A stretch of 64,000 nt of DNA from Humisphaera borealis (GTDB lineage Bacteria > Planctomycetota > Phycisphaerae > Tepidisphaerales > Tepidisphaeraceae): the NCBI RefSeq assembly GCF_015169395.1, contig NZ_CP063458.1, forward strand, positions 2,108,001-2,172,000. The letters are read 5' to 3'. Numbering within the stretch: the stretch's first letter is position 1; every line of letters begins with the position of its first letter. The notes beneath the pieces are model-generated. The model worked only from the letters and a program-made list of their open reading frames with translations. It was not told where the DNA came from and made no database searches. Made by a program: the position numbers and the translations under genes. Of the stretch, positions 39,154 to 45,895 are shown one piece after another.

Positions 39154-39185
39154 ACGCCGCGGGTTTAGCGACCCGCGGCGTTTTT
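39154..39185 (+). terminator. Rho-independent terminator
   Basis: ACGCCGCGGGT (39154-39164) pairs with ACCCGCGGCGT (39171-39181) around a 6-base loop and is followed by TTTT. It ends the CAP/SdrD-like gene. Confidence 0.93.
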
Positions 39186-39270: not shown

Positions 39271-39879
39271 ATGGTGCGTACTCCCTCCAAATCCGCGGCG
39301 AGCCTGGGACTCTTGTTGCTGCTGTCGGCGGTTGCCTGGTCGGCCGCATCCGATGCCAAGCGGCCGGCGACCCGACCAGCGGATCAACCCGTCAAAGATG
39401 TCGAGGGTCGGTTGTGCCACCCCCTTTCGACTGGCGGTGCCAAGGCAGCAGTAGTATTTTTCCTGAGCCATGACTGCCCGATCTCCAATGGCTACTCGCC
39501 GGAGATCAACCGAATCTGCAAAGAGTTCGGTGGCGACGGGAAAGTCGTCTTCCATATCGTCCACCCGTACGAGAAACTCTCGGCCGACGAGGCCCGCAAG
39601 CACGCCAAAGAGTTCGCCTACACCGTTCCCGTGATCGTCGACGCAGACAAGCAACTCACTCGCTCCCTGCGAGCCACGACAACACCCCAAGTGTTTGTCT
39701 TGACCCCCGACGGCGAGGTCGCCTACAGCGGGAGGATCGACAATCTCTGGAGCGGGTTTGGTAAACGCCGAACTGAGCCGACCGTTCGAGACCTCCGCGA
39801 TTCCCTCTCGGCAATTCTTGCGGGCAAGCCGGTCCCGAACCGCTCGACCGATTCCATCGGTTGCCCGATTGAGCCGTAA
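39271..39879 (+). CDS. Thioredoxin-fold redoxin, exported, 202 aa
   Basis: This is a predicted periplasmic AhpC/TSA-redoxin-type protein. The signal peptide is SLGLLLLLSAVAWSAA. The active-site region is VVFFLSHDCPISNGYSPEI, with a single Cys (one-Cys type) where the redoxin peroxidatic Cys sits. The cis-Pro segment TTTPQVFVLTPDGEVAYSGR is well kept. In planctomycetes this subfamily is typically paired with a cytochrome/copper-monooxygenase protein, and that gene starts 42 bases downstream here. The two are very likely an operon. The exact electron donor is unknown. Confidence 0.9.
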   Translation: MVRTPSKSAASLGLLLLLSAVAWSAASDAKRPATRPADQPVKDVEGRLCHPLSTGGAKAAVVFFLSHDCPISNGYSPEINRICKEFGGDGKVVFHIVHPYEKLSADEARKHAKEFAYTVPVIVDADKQLTRSLRATTTPQVFVLTPDGEVAYSGRIDNLWSGFGKRRTEPTVRDLRDSLSAILAGKPVPNRSTDSIGCPIEP

Positions 39880-39921
39880 CCAATTGGCTCTCGTAAAACT
39901 GGACGACACAGGAGCACACCC

Positions 39922-41367
39922 ATGCAACGACGTACGATTCTCGCTCTGATCCTGATATTAGGATTCGGGTCGCTACAGACTACCGTTGTCGCCGCGGCAC
40001 CAGCGGACTCGGCTGCGACTGTTCAAGTCACGTACGCCAAGCACATCGCGCCGATTCTTTTCGAGAACTGCGCCACGTGCCATCGCCCCGGCGAGGTCGC
40101 CCCCTTCTCTTTGCTGACCTACCAGGATGCCAAGCGCCGCGCCAGTCAGATTTCCGAGGTCACTGAATCGAAGTACATGCCACCTTGGCTTCCGGTCGAC
40201 GGTCATGGCGACTTCGCCGGCGCGCGCAAGTTGACGCCTGCGCAGATCAAAATGATCCGCGTCTGGGCCGATTCCGGGGCTCCTGAGGGAAATCCGGCCG
40301 ATCTGCCCCCCGCGCCAAAGTTCGCCGAAGGATGGGCTCTGGGCGAGCCTGACATGGTCGTAAAGATGACCGAGAAATACACGCTACGGGCAGAAGGCAA
40401 AGACGTCTTCAGGGTATTCGTGATTCCGATCGACCTGCCCGAAGACAAGTACGTCACCGCGGTCGACTACCGCCCGACCAACCGCAAGATTCTTCACCAC
40501 GCGTTGATGTTCACCGACACGCAGAAGCAGGCTCGCAAGCTAGACGAGCAGGACAAGGAGCCGGGCTACGGCAACGGCCGGGCCGGCGGACTCGGGTTCG
40601 TTCCCAGCGGCGGCCTTGGTGGATGGGCCCCGGGCGTTACGCCCCGCCATCTGCCCGACGGCGTCGCCCGCATCCTGCACAAAGGTGCCGATCTGGTTCT
40701 ACAGGTGCACTTCCACCCCAGTGGCAAGGTCGAGGAAGAGCAGTCTTCCATCGGTCTCTACTTCGCCAAGAAGGAGCCGCAACGGCTGGCGATCAGCCTG
40801 CCCAAGGGGATGCGCCGCCAGTCACTGGACATCGCGCCCGGCAAGAAGGACTTCACCCTGACCGACACCTTCACCCTGCCGCTCGAAGCCCAAGTTGTCG
40901 GCATCTTCCCCCACGCCCACCTGCTCTGTAAGGAAATCAAGGTCGATGCCACGCTTCCCGACGGAACGCAGAAGCCGCTCATCTGGATCAAGGACTGGGA
41001 CTGGAACTGGCAGGACGAGTTCCTTTACGACAAGACGATCAAGCTGCCGGCGGGAACGAAGATTGATCAGAAATACGTCTTCGACAACTCGGCCGACAAT
41101 GTGCGCAACCCCAACAATCCGCCCAAACGCGTGACCTGGGGCGAGCAGACCGCAGACGAGATGGCGATCACGTTCTTTATCGTCACGGCACCGAAAGACG
41201 CATTGCTGTTCCAGCTCGGCAGAGGCCGCCGGGCCGACGCCGGCGGTGCGCCGGGGGCGGATATCGCCACCAGTGCGATTCGAGACGCCCTTCGGCGTCG
41301 TGCCGAGCAGAACCTGAATCAGGCGCAGGGACAGCCCGATTCAAAGCCACAGGCTAATCCGAAGTAG
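39922..41367 (+). CDS. Cytochrome c - copper type II monooxygenase-like protein, 481 aa
   Basis: This is an exported redox enzyme of unknown substrate. AGGAG nine bases upstream supports the start, and a signal peptide follows (TILALILILGFGSLQTTVVA). A c-type heme site, CATCH, is in FENCATCHRPGEVAPFSL. The C-terminal two-thirds resemble the copper type II ascorbate-dependent monooxygenase fold, with candidate copper ligands in KILHHALMF, LQVHFHPSGK and IFPHAHLLCKE. Fusing heme c to this fold suggests electrons reach copper through the heme rather than through ascorbate. It is co-transcribed with the redoxin before it. A Gln/Asn/Pro-rich tail ends the protein. Confidence 0.88.
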   Translation: MQRRTILALILILGFGSLQTTVVAAAPADSAATVQVTYAKHIAPILFENCATCHRPGEVAPFSLLTYQDAKRRASQISEVTESKYMPPWLPVDGHGDFAGARKLTPAQIKMIRVWADSGAPEGNPADLPPAPKFAEGWALGEPDMVVKMTEKYTLRAEGKDVFRVFVIPIDLPEDKYVTAVDYRPTNRKILHHALMFTDTQKQARKLDEQDKEPGYGNGRAGGLGFVPSGGLGGWAPGVTPRHLPDGVARILHKGADLVLQVHFHPSGKVEEEQSSIGLYFAKKEPQRLAISLPKGMRRQSLDIAPGKKDFTLTDTFTLPLEAQVVGIFPHAHLLCKEIKVDATLPDGTQKPLIWIKDWDWNWQDEFLYDKTIKLPAGTKIDQKYVFDNSADNVRNPNNPPKRVTWGEQTADEMAITFFIVTAPKDALLFQLGRGRRADAGGAPGADIATSAIRDALRRRAEQNLNQAQGQPDSKPQANPK

Positions 41368-41391: not shown

Positions 41392-41472
41392 CCGATTAGC
41401 GGTCGCATCGAAGATGCACTCCCGGCAAGTCATGCCAGAGTGCACCTGCGGTGCGACCGCTAATCGGTTTTT
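41392..41472 (+). terminator. Large two-tier hairpin with T-run
   Basis: Outer arms of 16 bases (41392-41407 and 41452-41467) are exactly complementary. Inner arms TGCACTC (41415-41421) and GAGTGCA (41438-41444) form a second stem. TTTTT follows at 41468. It has the nested design of the other palindromes but also the T-run of a terminator for the monooxygenase gene. Confidence 0.85.
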
Positions 41473-41508: not shown

Positions 41509-44502
41509 TCACTTCATCAGAAATGCGATCAGGTCCGCCATCGCCTGCGGGTCGATCTGGCGTTCCAGCCCCTCGGGCATCAGAGACAGTCCTGTGCTGC
41601 GGAGCTTCTCGACTTCCGTCCTTGCGATGGTTTCCTTCAGGCCACCGGCCTTAAGCAGCGTGATCGCCGCCGACGTTTCGCCGGCCAGCAGGCCGCTCAG
41701 CGACCTGCCGTCTTTCGTCTCGACAACGTATTCCACGAACAGCCCGTTGACCTCGCGGTTGGGGTCAAGGACGTTGGTCAGTACGGCATCGGCGCCGCGC
41801 GCTTTCATGGTCGCCAGGTTCGGACCGATTTCGGTGCCGATGTCGCCGACGCGATGACAGCTTGCGCAGCTCTGTGAGAAGACGGCTTTGCCCTTGTCGG
41901 CATCACCTTTGAGTTCCAGCGCCTTTCCATACGCCTTGACGACATCGGCTCGGGGCGAGAGCTTCGACTTGTCGGCGAGCGTATCGGCGAGCTTTCGCAC
42001 GTTAGCGTCTTTGCTTTGTCGCAGCCGGCCGAGGCGGCTTGCGTCCAGATCGGTCGCGGGAATTCGTCCGGCTTCGATCGCTGTCAGGAAGGCCAGTGCC
42101 CGATCGGGTCGGGCGATGATCGCGTCCATGGCGGCAAGCCGTACCGCCGGGGTGAGCCGGGGCCATGCCGATGTCAGAACCTCTCCCACCTGAACGTCGG
42201 TATATCCGCCCAGCGCTGCGACGGCCGCGACCTGCACCTCTGCCGGTTCGAGTTTTCCGATCAAAGCCGACAGCGGTTCCCGAGCCTGGGCAAATGGCCC
42301 TGACCCGACGATCTGGATATCGGCGATGCGGTCGGCAATCGGCCTCGACGCGTCGGCCGCGCCCTTGCGCGCCTGTTCGGCCAGTCCGGCCAGCAGTTCG
42401 GCCGCTCGGCCGGTGAGAATCTGCTCCGGCGTCGGGCCACTCCGCCGCAGCCGCGCCCCTTCGACAATCCCGGCGACCGACTGCCGTGCCGCCTCGGCAT
42501 TGTTGTCGATCAGCACGCTGTTGATCGCCTTAACGACGCGGGCCATTTCCTCCGGCTTCCCGATCGCCGCCGACAACCGCGCGAGCGATCGCAGCATCTG
42601 GCGGGTCTTGGGATCGTTCAAACTCCCGTGATCGCGGATGGCCTGCCAGAAGACATCACCGACATCGCCGCTGACGGCGGCCATTGCCGCCGCCTGCCGG
42701 TACGGATCGGCTGAGCCGATCTTCAGCAGGTCGGCGATCGCGCGGGCGGTCAGTTCGTTGGCCTTGGCGCCCGTCGACTTGAGCAGGCCGATACTCAAGA
42801 GGCGTTGCAGTGCCAGCTCCGGTTCGTCTCTCGTGATCCAGGCGATGTCCTGCGCCAACCGAGGGTCCTTCTCGGCAAGCCGGACCGCGTGCCGGAGGAC
42901 TTCCGGCCGGTCGGCCTGCCGGAGAAACATGTCGCCCAGCGGCGCGAACAAATGATCCGAGCCGCCAATCGAGTTCAGCGCATAGAGCGCATGGATCCGG
43001 GCTTCCGGGAGCGTCGCGCGAGACCCCTCAAACGACGACATCGCCAGGCGGTTTAGAGACGTCAGTACCGACTGATCCTGCCGTTCGTAGAGCAACCGAC
43101 TTGCGGCTTCGCGGTGCCATGCGTTGCGATGATTGAGCAGCTCGACCAACTGCTCGCTGCTGGCCGTGCTGAGCTTCGGCGTTGGCCGATGCTTGTACCC
43201 GTCGGGCACAACGCGATAGATCCTCCCGCGGTCACGGCCGCTGGTCAGATCCAGATGCTGCTTGATCGAGTCCGGCAGGCTCGCCGGGTGCTCGATGACT
43301 TCCCGGCAGACGTCGAGCACATAGAGCGTGCCGTCGGGAGCGTTGGCGAACTGCGCCGGCCGGAACCAGATGTCTTCCGACGCCAGGAACTCGCGTCCCG
43401 CGTCGGCTCGCTCGGCGCGAAACAGAACGCCGTCCGTCGGCTTGATGATCTTGCGGTGAACCAGGTTCGACCCGACATCGCCGACGAAGGCCTGTCCCCG
43501 ATACTCGGCGGGAAAAGCATCGCCACGATAGATGGTCACGCCCGTCGCACCGGTGAAGTAGCCGGCGGCCCGGCCGCCGCCCTCGACGAGGCCCTTCACC
43601 GCCCCGCTGACGCGCAGTCGCGTCCGTACGATGCGCCAAGGCTCGACCGGGCTGATTCGGAACACTTCCGCCTGCGGTCCGTCGGCGGCAATGCTCACAC
43701 GTGCCGGTGGCAGCGCCACGCTCGGGCTGGCTGCCGCGTAGCGGTCGTCATACACCACCTGCTGGATGTGGTCGGAGTTGGAGCTGACGAACTTGCGGCC
43801 GAAGTCATCGAAGCTCATTCCGTGCTGGGCCCCGCCGCTTTCGGGACGTAGATCCAGCTTTCGCGGGTCGAACGAAAAGTCGCGACCGCGAAGATCGATC
43901 GCTTCCACCGGCTTGGTATCGATTGTTTTGGGCGGAGCGATCTTCGCGCCATTGGTACCAGTCGCACCATGAATGCGGTTGTCGATCCCCCAGTGAAAGC
44001 TGTTGAGCAGGCCTTGGACATTCTGCTTGCCGAATCCGGTGAAGACGACCTTCCGCTCATCGGCGACGCCGTCACCGGTGGTGTCTTTGAGGTAAATGAT
44101 GTCCGGGGCAGACCCGACGAAACAACCGCCGTCAAAGCAGATCACCGCCGTCGGCCAGGCCAGCTTGTCGGCCAGGACGGTGCGTTTGTCGAATACGCCG
44201 TCGTCGTTGGTGTCGGTCAGGACGGCAATCCGGCCGAGCGGCTGTGGAGACTCGAAGGGATAGTCCACCATCTCGCAAACATACGCACGGCCGTCTTCGT
44301 CGAAGTCGATCGCGACCGGGCTGAACACCAGCGGCTCAGCCGCGACAAGTTCCGGTTTGAAGCCCGGAATCACCTTGATCATCGCCGCGGATTCCGCTGG
44401 CGTGCGTGGTGGAATCCGTGGCAACTCAGCGGCGAAGTCACTTTGTCCCAAAGCCGTCGGACAGATGCACAGAACGAGAAGGGCAATCGCGCGTTTCAAC
44501 AT
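41509..44502 (-). CDS. PVC-type heme-binding CxxCH protein (membrane-bound dehydrogenase family), 997 aa
   Basis: This is a large exported protein of the planctomycete/verrucomicrobial group annotated as membrane-bound dehydrogenase or PSCyt-type. The start at 44502 gives the signal peptide MLKRAIALLVLCICPTALG. Residues ~40-440 form a glucose/sorbosone-dehydrogenase-like beta-propeller (AIDFDEDGRAYVCEMVDYPF, GSAPDIIYLKDTTGDGVADE). A long HEAT-repeat-like helical region follows. A C-terminal cytochrome c domain has SCASCHRVGDIGTEIGPNL. Substrates are unknown; sugar oxidation is usually suggested. It converges on the copper-monooxygenase gene across the two-tier hairpin. Confidence 0.92.
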   Translation of the reverse strand: MLKRAIALLVLCICPTALGQSDFAAELPRIPPRTPAESAAMIKVIPGFKPELVAAEPLVFSPVAIDFDEDGRAYVCEMVDYPFESPQPLGRIAVLTDTNDDGVFDKRTVLADKLAWPTAVICFDGGCFVGSAPDIIYLKDTTGDGVADERKVVFTGFGKQNVQGLLNSFHWGIDNRIHGATGTNGAKIAPPKTIDTKPVEAIDLRGRDFSFDPRKLDLRPESGGAQHGMSFDDFGRKFVSSNSDHIQQVVYDDRYAAASPSVALPPARVSIAADGPQAEVFRISPVEPWRIVRTRLRVSGAVKGLVEGGGRAAGYFTGATGVTIYRGDAFPAEYRGQAFVGDVGSNLVHRKIIKPTDGVLFRAERADAGREFLASEDIWFRPAQFANAPDGTLYVLDVCREVIEHPASLPDSIKQHLDLTSGRDRGRIYRVVPDGYKHRPTPKLSTASSEQLVELLNHRNAWHREAASRLLYERQDQSVLTSLNRLAMSSFEGSRATLPEARIHALYALNSIGGSDHLFAPLGDMFLRQADRPEVLRHAVRLAEKDPRLAQDIAWITRDEPELALQRLLSIGLLKSTGAKANELTARAIADLLKIGSADPYRQAAAMAAVSGDVGDVFWQAIRDHGSLNDPKTRQMLRSLARLSAAIGKPEEMARVVKAINSVLIDNNAEAARQSVAGIVEGARLRRSGPTPEQILTGRAAELLAGLAEQARKGAADASRPIADRIADIQIVGSGPFAQAREPLSALIGKLEPAEVQVAAVAALGGYTDVQVGEVLTSAWPRLTPAVRLAAMDAIIARPDRALAFLTAIEAGRIPATDLDASRLGRLRQSKDANVRKLADTLADKSKLSPRADVVKAYGKALELKGDADKGKAVFSQSCASCHRVGDIGTEIGPNLATMKARGADAVLTNVLDPNREVNGLFVEYVVETKDGRSLSGLLAGETSAAITLLKAGGLKETIARTEVEKLRSTGLSLMPEGLERQIDPQAMADLIAFLMK

Positions 44503-44766
44503 GACAGGGTTCCATACTCGCCGAGTCGGACGACATCTGATTGACCGTCTGAACAACGTACGTTTGTGACGCAGCCGTTCCCCGTGCGAATCAGAGGCGA
44601 CGGACCTACCACAAGCGTGGCCATCCACGCGCGGTCATTGAGTAACGGCCTCGACGCCCGACGCGTTCCAGTCGCTAGTGGAAGTGTACTCGGTGGGAAT
44701 GCCGCCCGTGAGGGCACCCGCAAGGCCGCTGTCGAGCGGCGTCCAGCCTGCCGCGTTCAAACGAAC

Positions 44767-45249
44767 TCAGGCGGGGTTACGCGGCTTTGCGTCGGGCGTG
44801 GTGGCGGGGATCTCGGGCTTGACGGAGGGAACCGGGGTGATGCGGTGGTCGGCCGGGGTTTCCTTGATGTAGTTCACGTAGACCAGATTCCCCATCGCCA
44901 GCAGGAAGATCGCAGCCGCGACACCGCTGGCCCACCGAACATAGCGGAGGTGCGTGGGTTCGGAAGGTTTACCGGCAGACAACCGGGACAACGACGACAA
45001 GGCCGAGTCAGATTGCGCGGCCAGAACAACGCTTCGATCGAAGATCTCGTTCAACCGGTGATCCGGGATGGAGGCTTGTGCCGACGCGCTGAGGACAGTG
45101 CCGAATCGGCGAATGTCCGCCAACTCCGCGGGGCAATGGGGGCAGGTCTGCAGATGCTCGAGCACTTCCTGCCGGCGCTGGTCCGACAGTTCGCCGTCGT
45201 GCAACGGGCCCAGGAGCGGACCGAAGATGCATGGATTGGATTCCGTCAC
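44767..45249 (-). CDS. Zinc-finger anti-sigma factor, 160 aa
   Basis: This probable membrane anti-sigma factor controls the ECF sigma factor encoded upstream. The start is GTG at 45249 with GAGAGG five bases before it. The N-terminal zinc-binding anti-sigma (ZAS-like) segment is LHDGELSDQRRQEVLEHLQ followed by TCPHC, giving the H-x3-C-x2-C motif. One transmembrane helix (WASGVAAAIFLLAMGNLVYV) lies near residue 115, followed by a short Pro-rich periplasmic tail. The gene follows the sigma factor with a gap of ~85 bases, the usual order. Confidence 0.9.
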   Translation of the reverse strand: MTESNPCIFGPLLGPLHDGELSDQRRQEVLEHLQTCPHCPAELADIRRFGTVLSASAQASIPDHRLNEIFDRSVVLAAQSDSALSSLSRLSAGKPSEPTHLRYVRWASGVAAAIFLLAMGNLVYVNYIKETPADHRITPVPSVKPEIPATTPDAKPRNPA

Positions 45250-45334
45250 GACGACCTCTCGATGCGTTCAAACAATTCGGACACCAAACAACAATACCGC
45301 CTGCCTGCGACTGATCTTCAACAACCTACAACCT

Positions 45335-45895
45335 TTACGACACATAGGCCGGAAACTTCTCCCTCAGAAAACGCCGGGCTCGAAACAGCCGCGATTCGAC
45401 CGTTCCTCGGGGAATGGCCAATGCCTCGGCGATCTCTTCGTAGCTCATCTGGTGCATCTCGCGAAGCACCATGACTTCCCGGTGCTCGTGCGAAAGTGCG
45501 TCCAGCATCGTGGCGACGTCAATCTGGAAGTCGACGGTCGCAATGGAGTTCCCATTGTGCGTCGCGCCTTTTCCGCTGCCTCGGGCGGCCGAATCGGCGA
45601 TCTCGCCGGCTTCCAGGGGACTGGCCTTGCGAAGCCGCAGTGATCGCCGCGTCTTCGACGCCTGGTTGATCACAATGGTGTAAAGCCACGTCTTGAGCGA
45701 CGACCTGCCTTCGTAAGAACCGATCCCACGTAGCGCACCGACCAATGCCTGCTGGACGACGTCCTCGGCGTCGGCGGAGTTCCCGGTCAGAGAATAGGCC
45801 AGTCCGTAAAGCTCGCGCGCGTGCTTCAGTACCAGATCCTGAAGATCGGCCGGCGCACCGCTTCGCGGCTTGGTCGACTGTTCCACGTCGCTCAC
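45335..45895 (-). CDS. ECF-type RNA polymerase sigma factor, 186 aa
   Basis: This is a two-domain sigma-70-family factor lacking regions 1 and 3. Region 2 spans roughly residues 20-90 (LVLKHARELYGLAYSLTGNS, AEDVVQQALVGAL, YEGRSSLKTWLYTIVINQ). Region 4 spans roughly 125-180 (LDALSHEHREVMVLREMHQM, SYEEIAEALAIPRGTVESRL). The start is GTG at 45895. It is paired with the downstream anti-sigma gene. An AT-rich patch containing TATAAT on this strand lies ~175 bases upstream and may hold its promoter. Target genes are unknown. Confidence 0.94.
   Translation of the reverse strand: MSDVEQSTKPRSGAPADLQDLVLKHARELYGLAYSLTGNSADAEDVVQQALVGALRGIGSYEGRSSLKTWLYTIVINQASKTRRSLRLRKASPLEAGEIADSAARGSGKGATHNGNSIATVDFQIDVATMLDALSHEHREVMVLREMHQMSYEEIAEALAIPRGTVESRLFRARRFLREKFPAYVS

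Follow-up and report, generated by a model that had tools for sequence, protein, structure and literature searches.

A planctomycete gene pair encoding a redoxin and a cytochrome c-like protein with a predicted PHM/DBH-type copper monooxygenase core

Most discussion of the copper monooxygenases PHM and DBH treats them as animal enzymes supplied with electrons by ascorbate; the former finishes peptide hormones, and the latter makes noradrenaline. How electrons cross between the distant coppers of these enzymes is still debated. PHM has several disulfides, and the extra N-terminal domain of DBH is a DOMON domain. In cellobiose dehydrogenase and LPMO, a cytochrome domain feeds single electrons to a copper monooxygenase, but the heme is of the b type, the folds are different, and the partners are separate proteins. 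Some bacterial proteins are labelled 'ascorbate-dependent monooxygenase' in public databases, and the copper-enzyme family described here is therefore probably represented in them, with no function tested. Titles and abstract starts among the literature matches listed, which lay outside preprints and most subscription papers, contained nothing on such proteins. PHM is described as widespread in eukaryotes (PMC8812541).

Two adjacent genes of Humisphaera borealis encode a redoxin and a protein in which a CxxCH module is fused to a domain resembling these enzymes. With a probability of about 0.7, we read the pair as a two-gene unit for a periplasmic PHM/DBH-type copper monooxygenase whose electrons arrive through its own c-type heme and not from free ascorbate. 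The predicted fold and all six CuH and CuM ligands of rat PHM (PDB: 1PHM, 1SDW) are in register with the fusion protein, which differs from PHM in its additional N-terminal CxxCH module and redoxin partner, in the loss of the equivalents of R240 and N316, and in having one cysteine (C336) in its core. The predicted catalytic fold is as in DBH (PDB: 4ZEL, Z 21.7), with the CxxCH module as the extra N-terminal domain. The arrangement is alike in idea to that of cellobiose dehydrogenase and LPMO.

The window, the 64,000-nucleotide stretch of DNA that was analysed, contains the two open reading frames exactly where the initial annotation had placed them, separated by the 42 bases it gave. The features of the locus, with stop codons counted in for both genes, are as follows.

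39154–39181, plus strand: terminator-like stem-loop (12 base pairs) lying after the preceding gene and ahead of the pair (terminator-like site scan)
39271–39879, plus strand: redoxin (AhpC/TSA-Redoxin), 202 residues, with a signal-peptide-like start judged by eye (open reading frame, Pfam, alignment)
39475–39477, plus strand: codon of redoxin C69
39862–39864, plus strand: codon of redoxin C198
39910–39914, plus strand: AGGAG, likely ribosome binding site of the second gene (sequence)
39922–41367, plus strand: cytochrome c-like module and PHM/DBH-type copper monooxygenase, 481 residues (profile, model, fold match)
40027–40296, plus strand: cytochrome c-like module, residues about 36–125 (alignment, weak Pfam Cytochrome_CBB3 match)
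40069–40083, plus strand: CxxCH, C50-C53-H54 (motif)
40177–40179, plus strand: candidate axial M86 in MPPW (alignment)
40342–41211, plus strand: PHM/DBH-type core, residues about 141–430 (AlphaFold model, Foldseek, VIA)
40495–40500, plus strand: H192 and H193, equivalents of PHM CuH ligands H107 and H108 (alignment)
40708–40710, plus strand: H263, equivalent of PHM CuH ligand H172 (alignment)
40912–40920, plus strand: H331 and H333, equivalents of PHM CuM ligands H242 and H244 (alignment)
41161–41163, plus strand: M414, equivalent of PHM CuM ligand M314 (alignment)
41392–41467, plus strand: long hairpin with a T run behind it, likely the terminator at the end of the unit (folding energy)

The downstream hairpin has a folding energy of -56.5 kcal/mol (z -8.26), a stability equalled in none of 200 shuffles. 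The upstream stem is weak evidence by itself, because the 2 terminator-like sites found are not above the mean of 2.3 in shuffles. A search for a sigma-70-like promoter at the pair found none. Both proteins start with a signal-peptide-like stretch, as judged by eye, and the fusion protein is apparently exported. The neighbouring genes are unrelated to the pair: upstream is an SdrD/carboxypeptidase-regulatory-like protein, and downstream, on the opposite strand (41512–44628), a DUF7133 protein that ends in a cytochrome c domain. Further along the minus strand (44770–45895), a zf-HC2 (anti-sigma-like) protein lies beside an open reading frame that by eye resembles an ECF sigma factor.

As a single sequence, the fusion protein hit none of the Pfam copper-monooxygenase models at E 10 and no copper-monooxygenase family in NCBIfam at E 1, and its three PDB matches, each with E 0.56 or worse, included no copper monooxygenase. 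At E≤10, a profile of the fusion protein and seven relatives (set A1, eight sequences) picked up 15 PDB sequences; PHM accounts for 12 of these, with a best E of 1e-7. Of the eight A1 members, six matched Pfam PF03712 with E-values up to 10 and a best value of 6.2e-9, and one matched PF01082 (0.0085); the fusion protein does not reach the curated cut-off of either family. The PF03712 search of the H. borealis genome was silent, as were those of all 14 control genomes, and is thus uninformative. The AlphaFold model of the fusion protein, computed from eight sequences, is of moderate confidence (mean pLDDT 71.2, pTM 0.68) and is predicted to contain the double jelly-roll catalytic core of the PHM/DBH superfamily. 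When this model was used in Foldseek, rows 1–31 were all PHM or DBH (best E 4.8e-13). VIA-align superimposed it onto DBH (4zel) with Z 21.7 and 3.4 Å over 288 aligned residues, and onto PHM (5wja) with Z 21.4 and 2.7 Å over 264; the next family was PNGase F, with Z 7.9.

In the alignment of A1 with PHM, histidine or methionine faces histidine or methionine in six columns only, and these are the six copper ligands of PHM. Counting columns from the first, set to 107, gives H107, H108, H172, H242, H244, and M314, in agreement with the mutant names H107A, H108A, H172A, and M314I in PDB entry titles. By this register, the fusion protein would possess both the three-histidine CuH and the two-histidine/methionine CuM ligand sets of the superfamily. 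As far as sequence register and fold match can indicate, the histidines would thus lie together, as the initial annotation required. The pattern HHHHHM is present in 99/99 rows spanning all six positions of a 116-row alignment, which includes fragments and, through overlapping loci, some genes twice; after contained fragments were dropped, it is intact in 95/95 complete rows among 108. The initial annotation had picked candidate ligands from the motifs LHHAL, HFHP, and PHAH, all of which are present in the protein, as is CxxCH. Its choice agrees with the PHM ligands for H192, H193, H263, H331, and H333, but not for H265, which is histidine in only 28 of 102 covering rows and leaves H263 as the invariant ligand of HFHP. 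The sixth ligand, M414 in DEM, was absent from its list. The profile E-value, the ligand register, and the Foldseek and VIA-align matches of the predicted model together indicate that the resemblance is not due to chance. The proposed joining of a CxxCH domain to a fold like that of the copper type II monooxygenases is supported. Membership of the fusion protein in the PHM/DBH superfamily by predicted fold and ligands, though not as PHM proper, is well supported.

The residues C50, C53, and H54, and M86 together with the Pro-Pro-Trp that follows it, are invariant in a first set of 37 rows. CxxCH and M86, the putative heme-binding motif and distal methionine of a c-type cytochrome, are kept in 105/105 covering rows of the wide alignment and in 101/101 without contained fragments. 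The Pfam model Cytochrome_CBB3 matches all eight A1 members weakly (best E 7e-5), and the fusion protein scores 14.5 bits against a cut-off of 27. Predicted alone, the heme module forms four helices with a mean pLDDT of 71.2 and low confidence around the motif, and this model matched no PDB fold, and hence no solved cytochrome fold, at E≤0.001. Because the Pfam match is weak and no PDB fold was matched, the assignment of heme c is supported by the motif rather than by the fold. Such an architecture would most naturally mean that the heme delivers electrons to the copper.

The redoxin passes the Pfam cut-offs of PF00578 (34.9 versus 26) and PF08534 (30.9 versus 26.6). It is not simply a one-Cys protein, as had been stated, since it has two conserved cysteines, C69 (24/24 rows) and C198 (23/24, with one gap). 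Both are also conserved in its three best solved relatives (PDB: 2YWI, 3U5R, 2CVB), which align with 142–174 query residues and have the same CP active site and C-terminal GC. Those structures entered the PDB as stand-alone proteins whose function is unknown or only probable, whereas the redoxin here is tied to a copper enzyme. C69 lies in the sequence CPIS, and the position of the second cysteine of the CxxC of thioredoxin and ResA is cysteine in 2/24 rows. The motif PxxxTxxC, which we take to be that of peroxiredoxins, is not kept, with proline at -7 in 0/24 rows and threonine or serine at -3 in 11/24. Pro139, presumably at the place of the thioredoxin cis-Pro, is invariant (24/24). The best NCBIfam matches are StoA (31.4 bits) and ResA (15.1 bits), far under the cut-offs of 210 and 170, and most fused relatives that were scanned hit a ResA, StoA, or DsbE model. 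In relatives with the redoxin at the N-terminus of the copper enzyme, the second redoxin cysteine is near the heme module in sequence: the GC near the redoxin end precedes the heme cysteine by 24–37 residues, mostly 27–28, in 62 of 65 rows, among which some genes are counted twice. This near-fixed spacing may favour contact between thiol and heme; a short linker alone could explain it.

The occurrence of the redoxin was followed through 104 distinct relatives, picked via the copper enzyme and not via the redoxin. The set comprises near-full-length same-phylum matches, named loci, and acidobacterial loci; split and short matches and a few of the weakest same-phylum ones were left out. A redoxin was scored as adjacent if encoded on the same strand within the stretch, usually 1.5 kb on each side, and as absent if none was found with at least 800 bases on each side; genes at contig edges were left unjudged. 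The redoxin is fused in 61 relatives (60 N-terminally and one C-terminally), adjacent in 15, absent in 15, and unjudged in 13. The 90 same-phylum rows comprise 60 N-terminal fusions, one C-terminal fusion, 13 adjacent, nine absent, and seven unjudged cases. A quick tree, in which 33 of the 101 inner branches are open, requires at least five changes between fused and adjacent states and at least seven between linked and unlinked ones. Chance adjacency should be rare, because the H. borealis genome of 7.19 Mb has two strong redoxin matches, the one in the pair included, and two weak ones. With a fused or adjacent redoxin in 76 of the 91 judged genes, the partnership across genomes that had been anticipated holds, and the redoxin is a true standing partner of the copper enzyme. 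It is not needed everywhere, since 15 of the 91, including the paralog in the same genome, have none nearby.

No other gene accompanies the pair as widely. When 20 loci, two of them from H. borealis, were compared with 20 control stretches, wide recurrence was limited to the pair itself (20/20 loci versus 0/20 controls). The next of the 25 neighbour groups listed, at 12 and 4 loci, are by their coordinates shadows of the same gene in overlapping frames. An ABC-ATPase-like group, named by eye, occurs at 4 loci and in 3 controls, and the remaining groups occur at 3 loci each, many of them common to the near relatives L106–L108.

In the mechanism that we propose, heme c would take up electrons one by one from the respiratory pool of the periplasm and hand them to CuH. 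O2 would bind at CuM, and a C–H bond of the substrate, probably a small exported or environmental molecule, would be hydroxylated as in PHM and DBH. The redoxin, with C69 and C198, may serve as a dedicated thiol module, which in fused relatives lies near the heme along the chain. The least certain step is its function, which would most likely be to protect or reduce the enzyme or to handle a by-product; protection, peroxide handling, maturation, and electron supply are all possible.

A fusion protein that shares the PHM fold and six copper ligands could be a true peptidylglycine alpha-hydroxylating enzyme, a PHM orthologue amidating exported peptides, and peptide hydroxylation had been suggested as an activity to assay. 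We take R240, N316, and Y318 of PHM to be the residues that hold the peptide carboxylate; their columns contain F329, I416, and F418 in the fusion protein. Arginine occupies the R240 column in 0/102 covering rows and asparagine the N316 column in 0/101, and the Y318 column has tyrosine in 47/101 and phenylalanine in 30/101. Since the family does not keep the peptidyl-glycine pocket, a peptidyl-glycine is an improbable substrate, and with no recurrent lyase partner seen among the neighbours of the 20 loci, a PHM orthologue is very unlikely. Nothing in the analysis points to alkanes, whose hydroxylation had also been suggested, and a scan of 20 proteins from acidobacterial neighbourhoods gave no steady clue to the substrate. 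That the protein is related by fold only and lacks copper chemistry, as a PNGase F-like or structural jelly roll, is hardly credible: the double jelly roll is common to PNGase F (Z 7.9), but the gap in Z to PHM and DBH is wide, and the ligand sets are complete in 95/95 rows.

Other readings of the pair turn on the redoxin. It could be a maturation factor, resembling CcmG/ResA or TlpA/Sco, that keeps CxxCH reduced for heme attachment or loads copper. The StoA, ResA, and DsbE matches, although far below cut-offs for the redoxin itself, and the closeness of its C-terminal cysteine to the heme motif in the fusions speak for such a role. Maturation factors of these types use CxxC, however, which the redoxin lacks, and 15 of the 91 judged relatives have no redoxin nearby, yet belong to the alignment in which heme and copper ligands are always kept; we hold maturation to be a less likely candidate. 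The score above the AhpC/TSA cut-off, together with the linkage in 76/91 judged genes, would also suit a copper enzyme that either consumes or produces H2O2, with the redoxin clearing leaked or supplied peroxide. The missing PxxxTxxC motif and the invariant Pro139, which would stand at the cis-Pro position of thioredoxin, count against this, and we consider it rather unlikely. An unlikely variant is a thiol-driven, ascorbate-free copper hydroxylase with a chain of three electron centres on one enzyme, in which the C69/C198 dithiol, recharged by the inner-membrane thiol system, would pass electrons to the adjacent heme c and this in turn, one at a time, to CuH and CuM. Reduction through the enzyme's own heme, with the redoxin as a protecting or reducing module, is the reading we prefer.

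Among 149 genomes of the same phylum, that of H. borealis included, 61 have a match at E 0.001; by our reading of the table, 57 of these reach the copper module, and four (G017, G035, G101, and G130) match in the cytochrome part only. The spread is patchy, with a match in one of the eight other genomes listed for the same class. In 60 genomes from the phylum of the acidobacterial relative L012, 14 have a match; by our reading, 12 of these reach the copper module, two of which are the seeds G149 and G152. A paralog in H. borealis itself (L002; 2395613–2396812, minus strand) is a cytochrome c-PHM protein 47% identical to the fusion protein, has C-terminal EF-hand matches, and has no redoxin within about 9 kb. 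The arrangement of copper enzyme, cytochrome, and redoxin is that of a large family and no local oddity. In such a bacterial family, the built-in heme would allow each electron to be followed spectroscopically and would offer a new test system; the family bears on the origin of the animal PHM and DBH, and would give the exported metabolism of planctomycetes and acidobacteria a further, common O2-dependent activity.

By our own count, more than ten copies of the copper enzyme, some in tandem, are present in each of the acidobacterial genomes G152 and G161. In G161, the tandem cytochrome c-PHM paralogs occupy five frames at L156:7219–15530 and two at L159:5586–8404; in G152, there are two frames and a fragment at L158:394–3896. 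Across the stretches L156–L159, no copper-enzyme frame contains a redoxin. One gene beside the five-gene array (L156:16286–17986) encodes a protein with an N-terminal redoxin, the remaining ~400 residues of which have no Pfam match at E 0.001. The expansion in these two genomes would be in keeping with a role, catabolic or secondary, that involves varied substrates. One further gene pair comes from a metagenome-assembled genome titled Bordetella parapertussis (L009); it lies very close on the tree to the pair of a Bryobacterales metagenome-assembled genome (L010), and its title is probably a mislabel.
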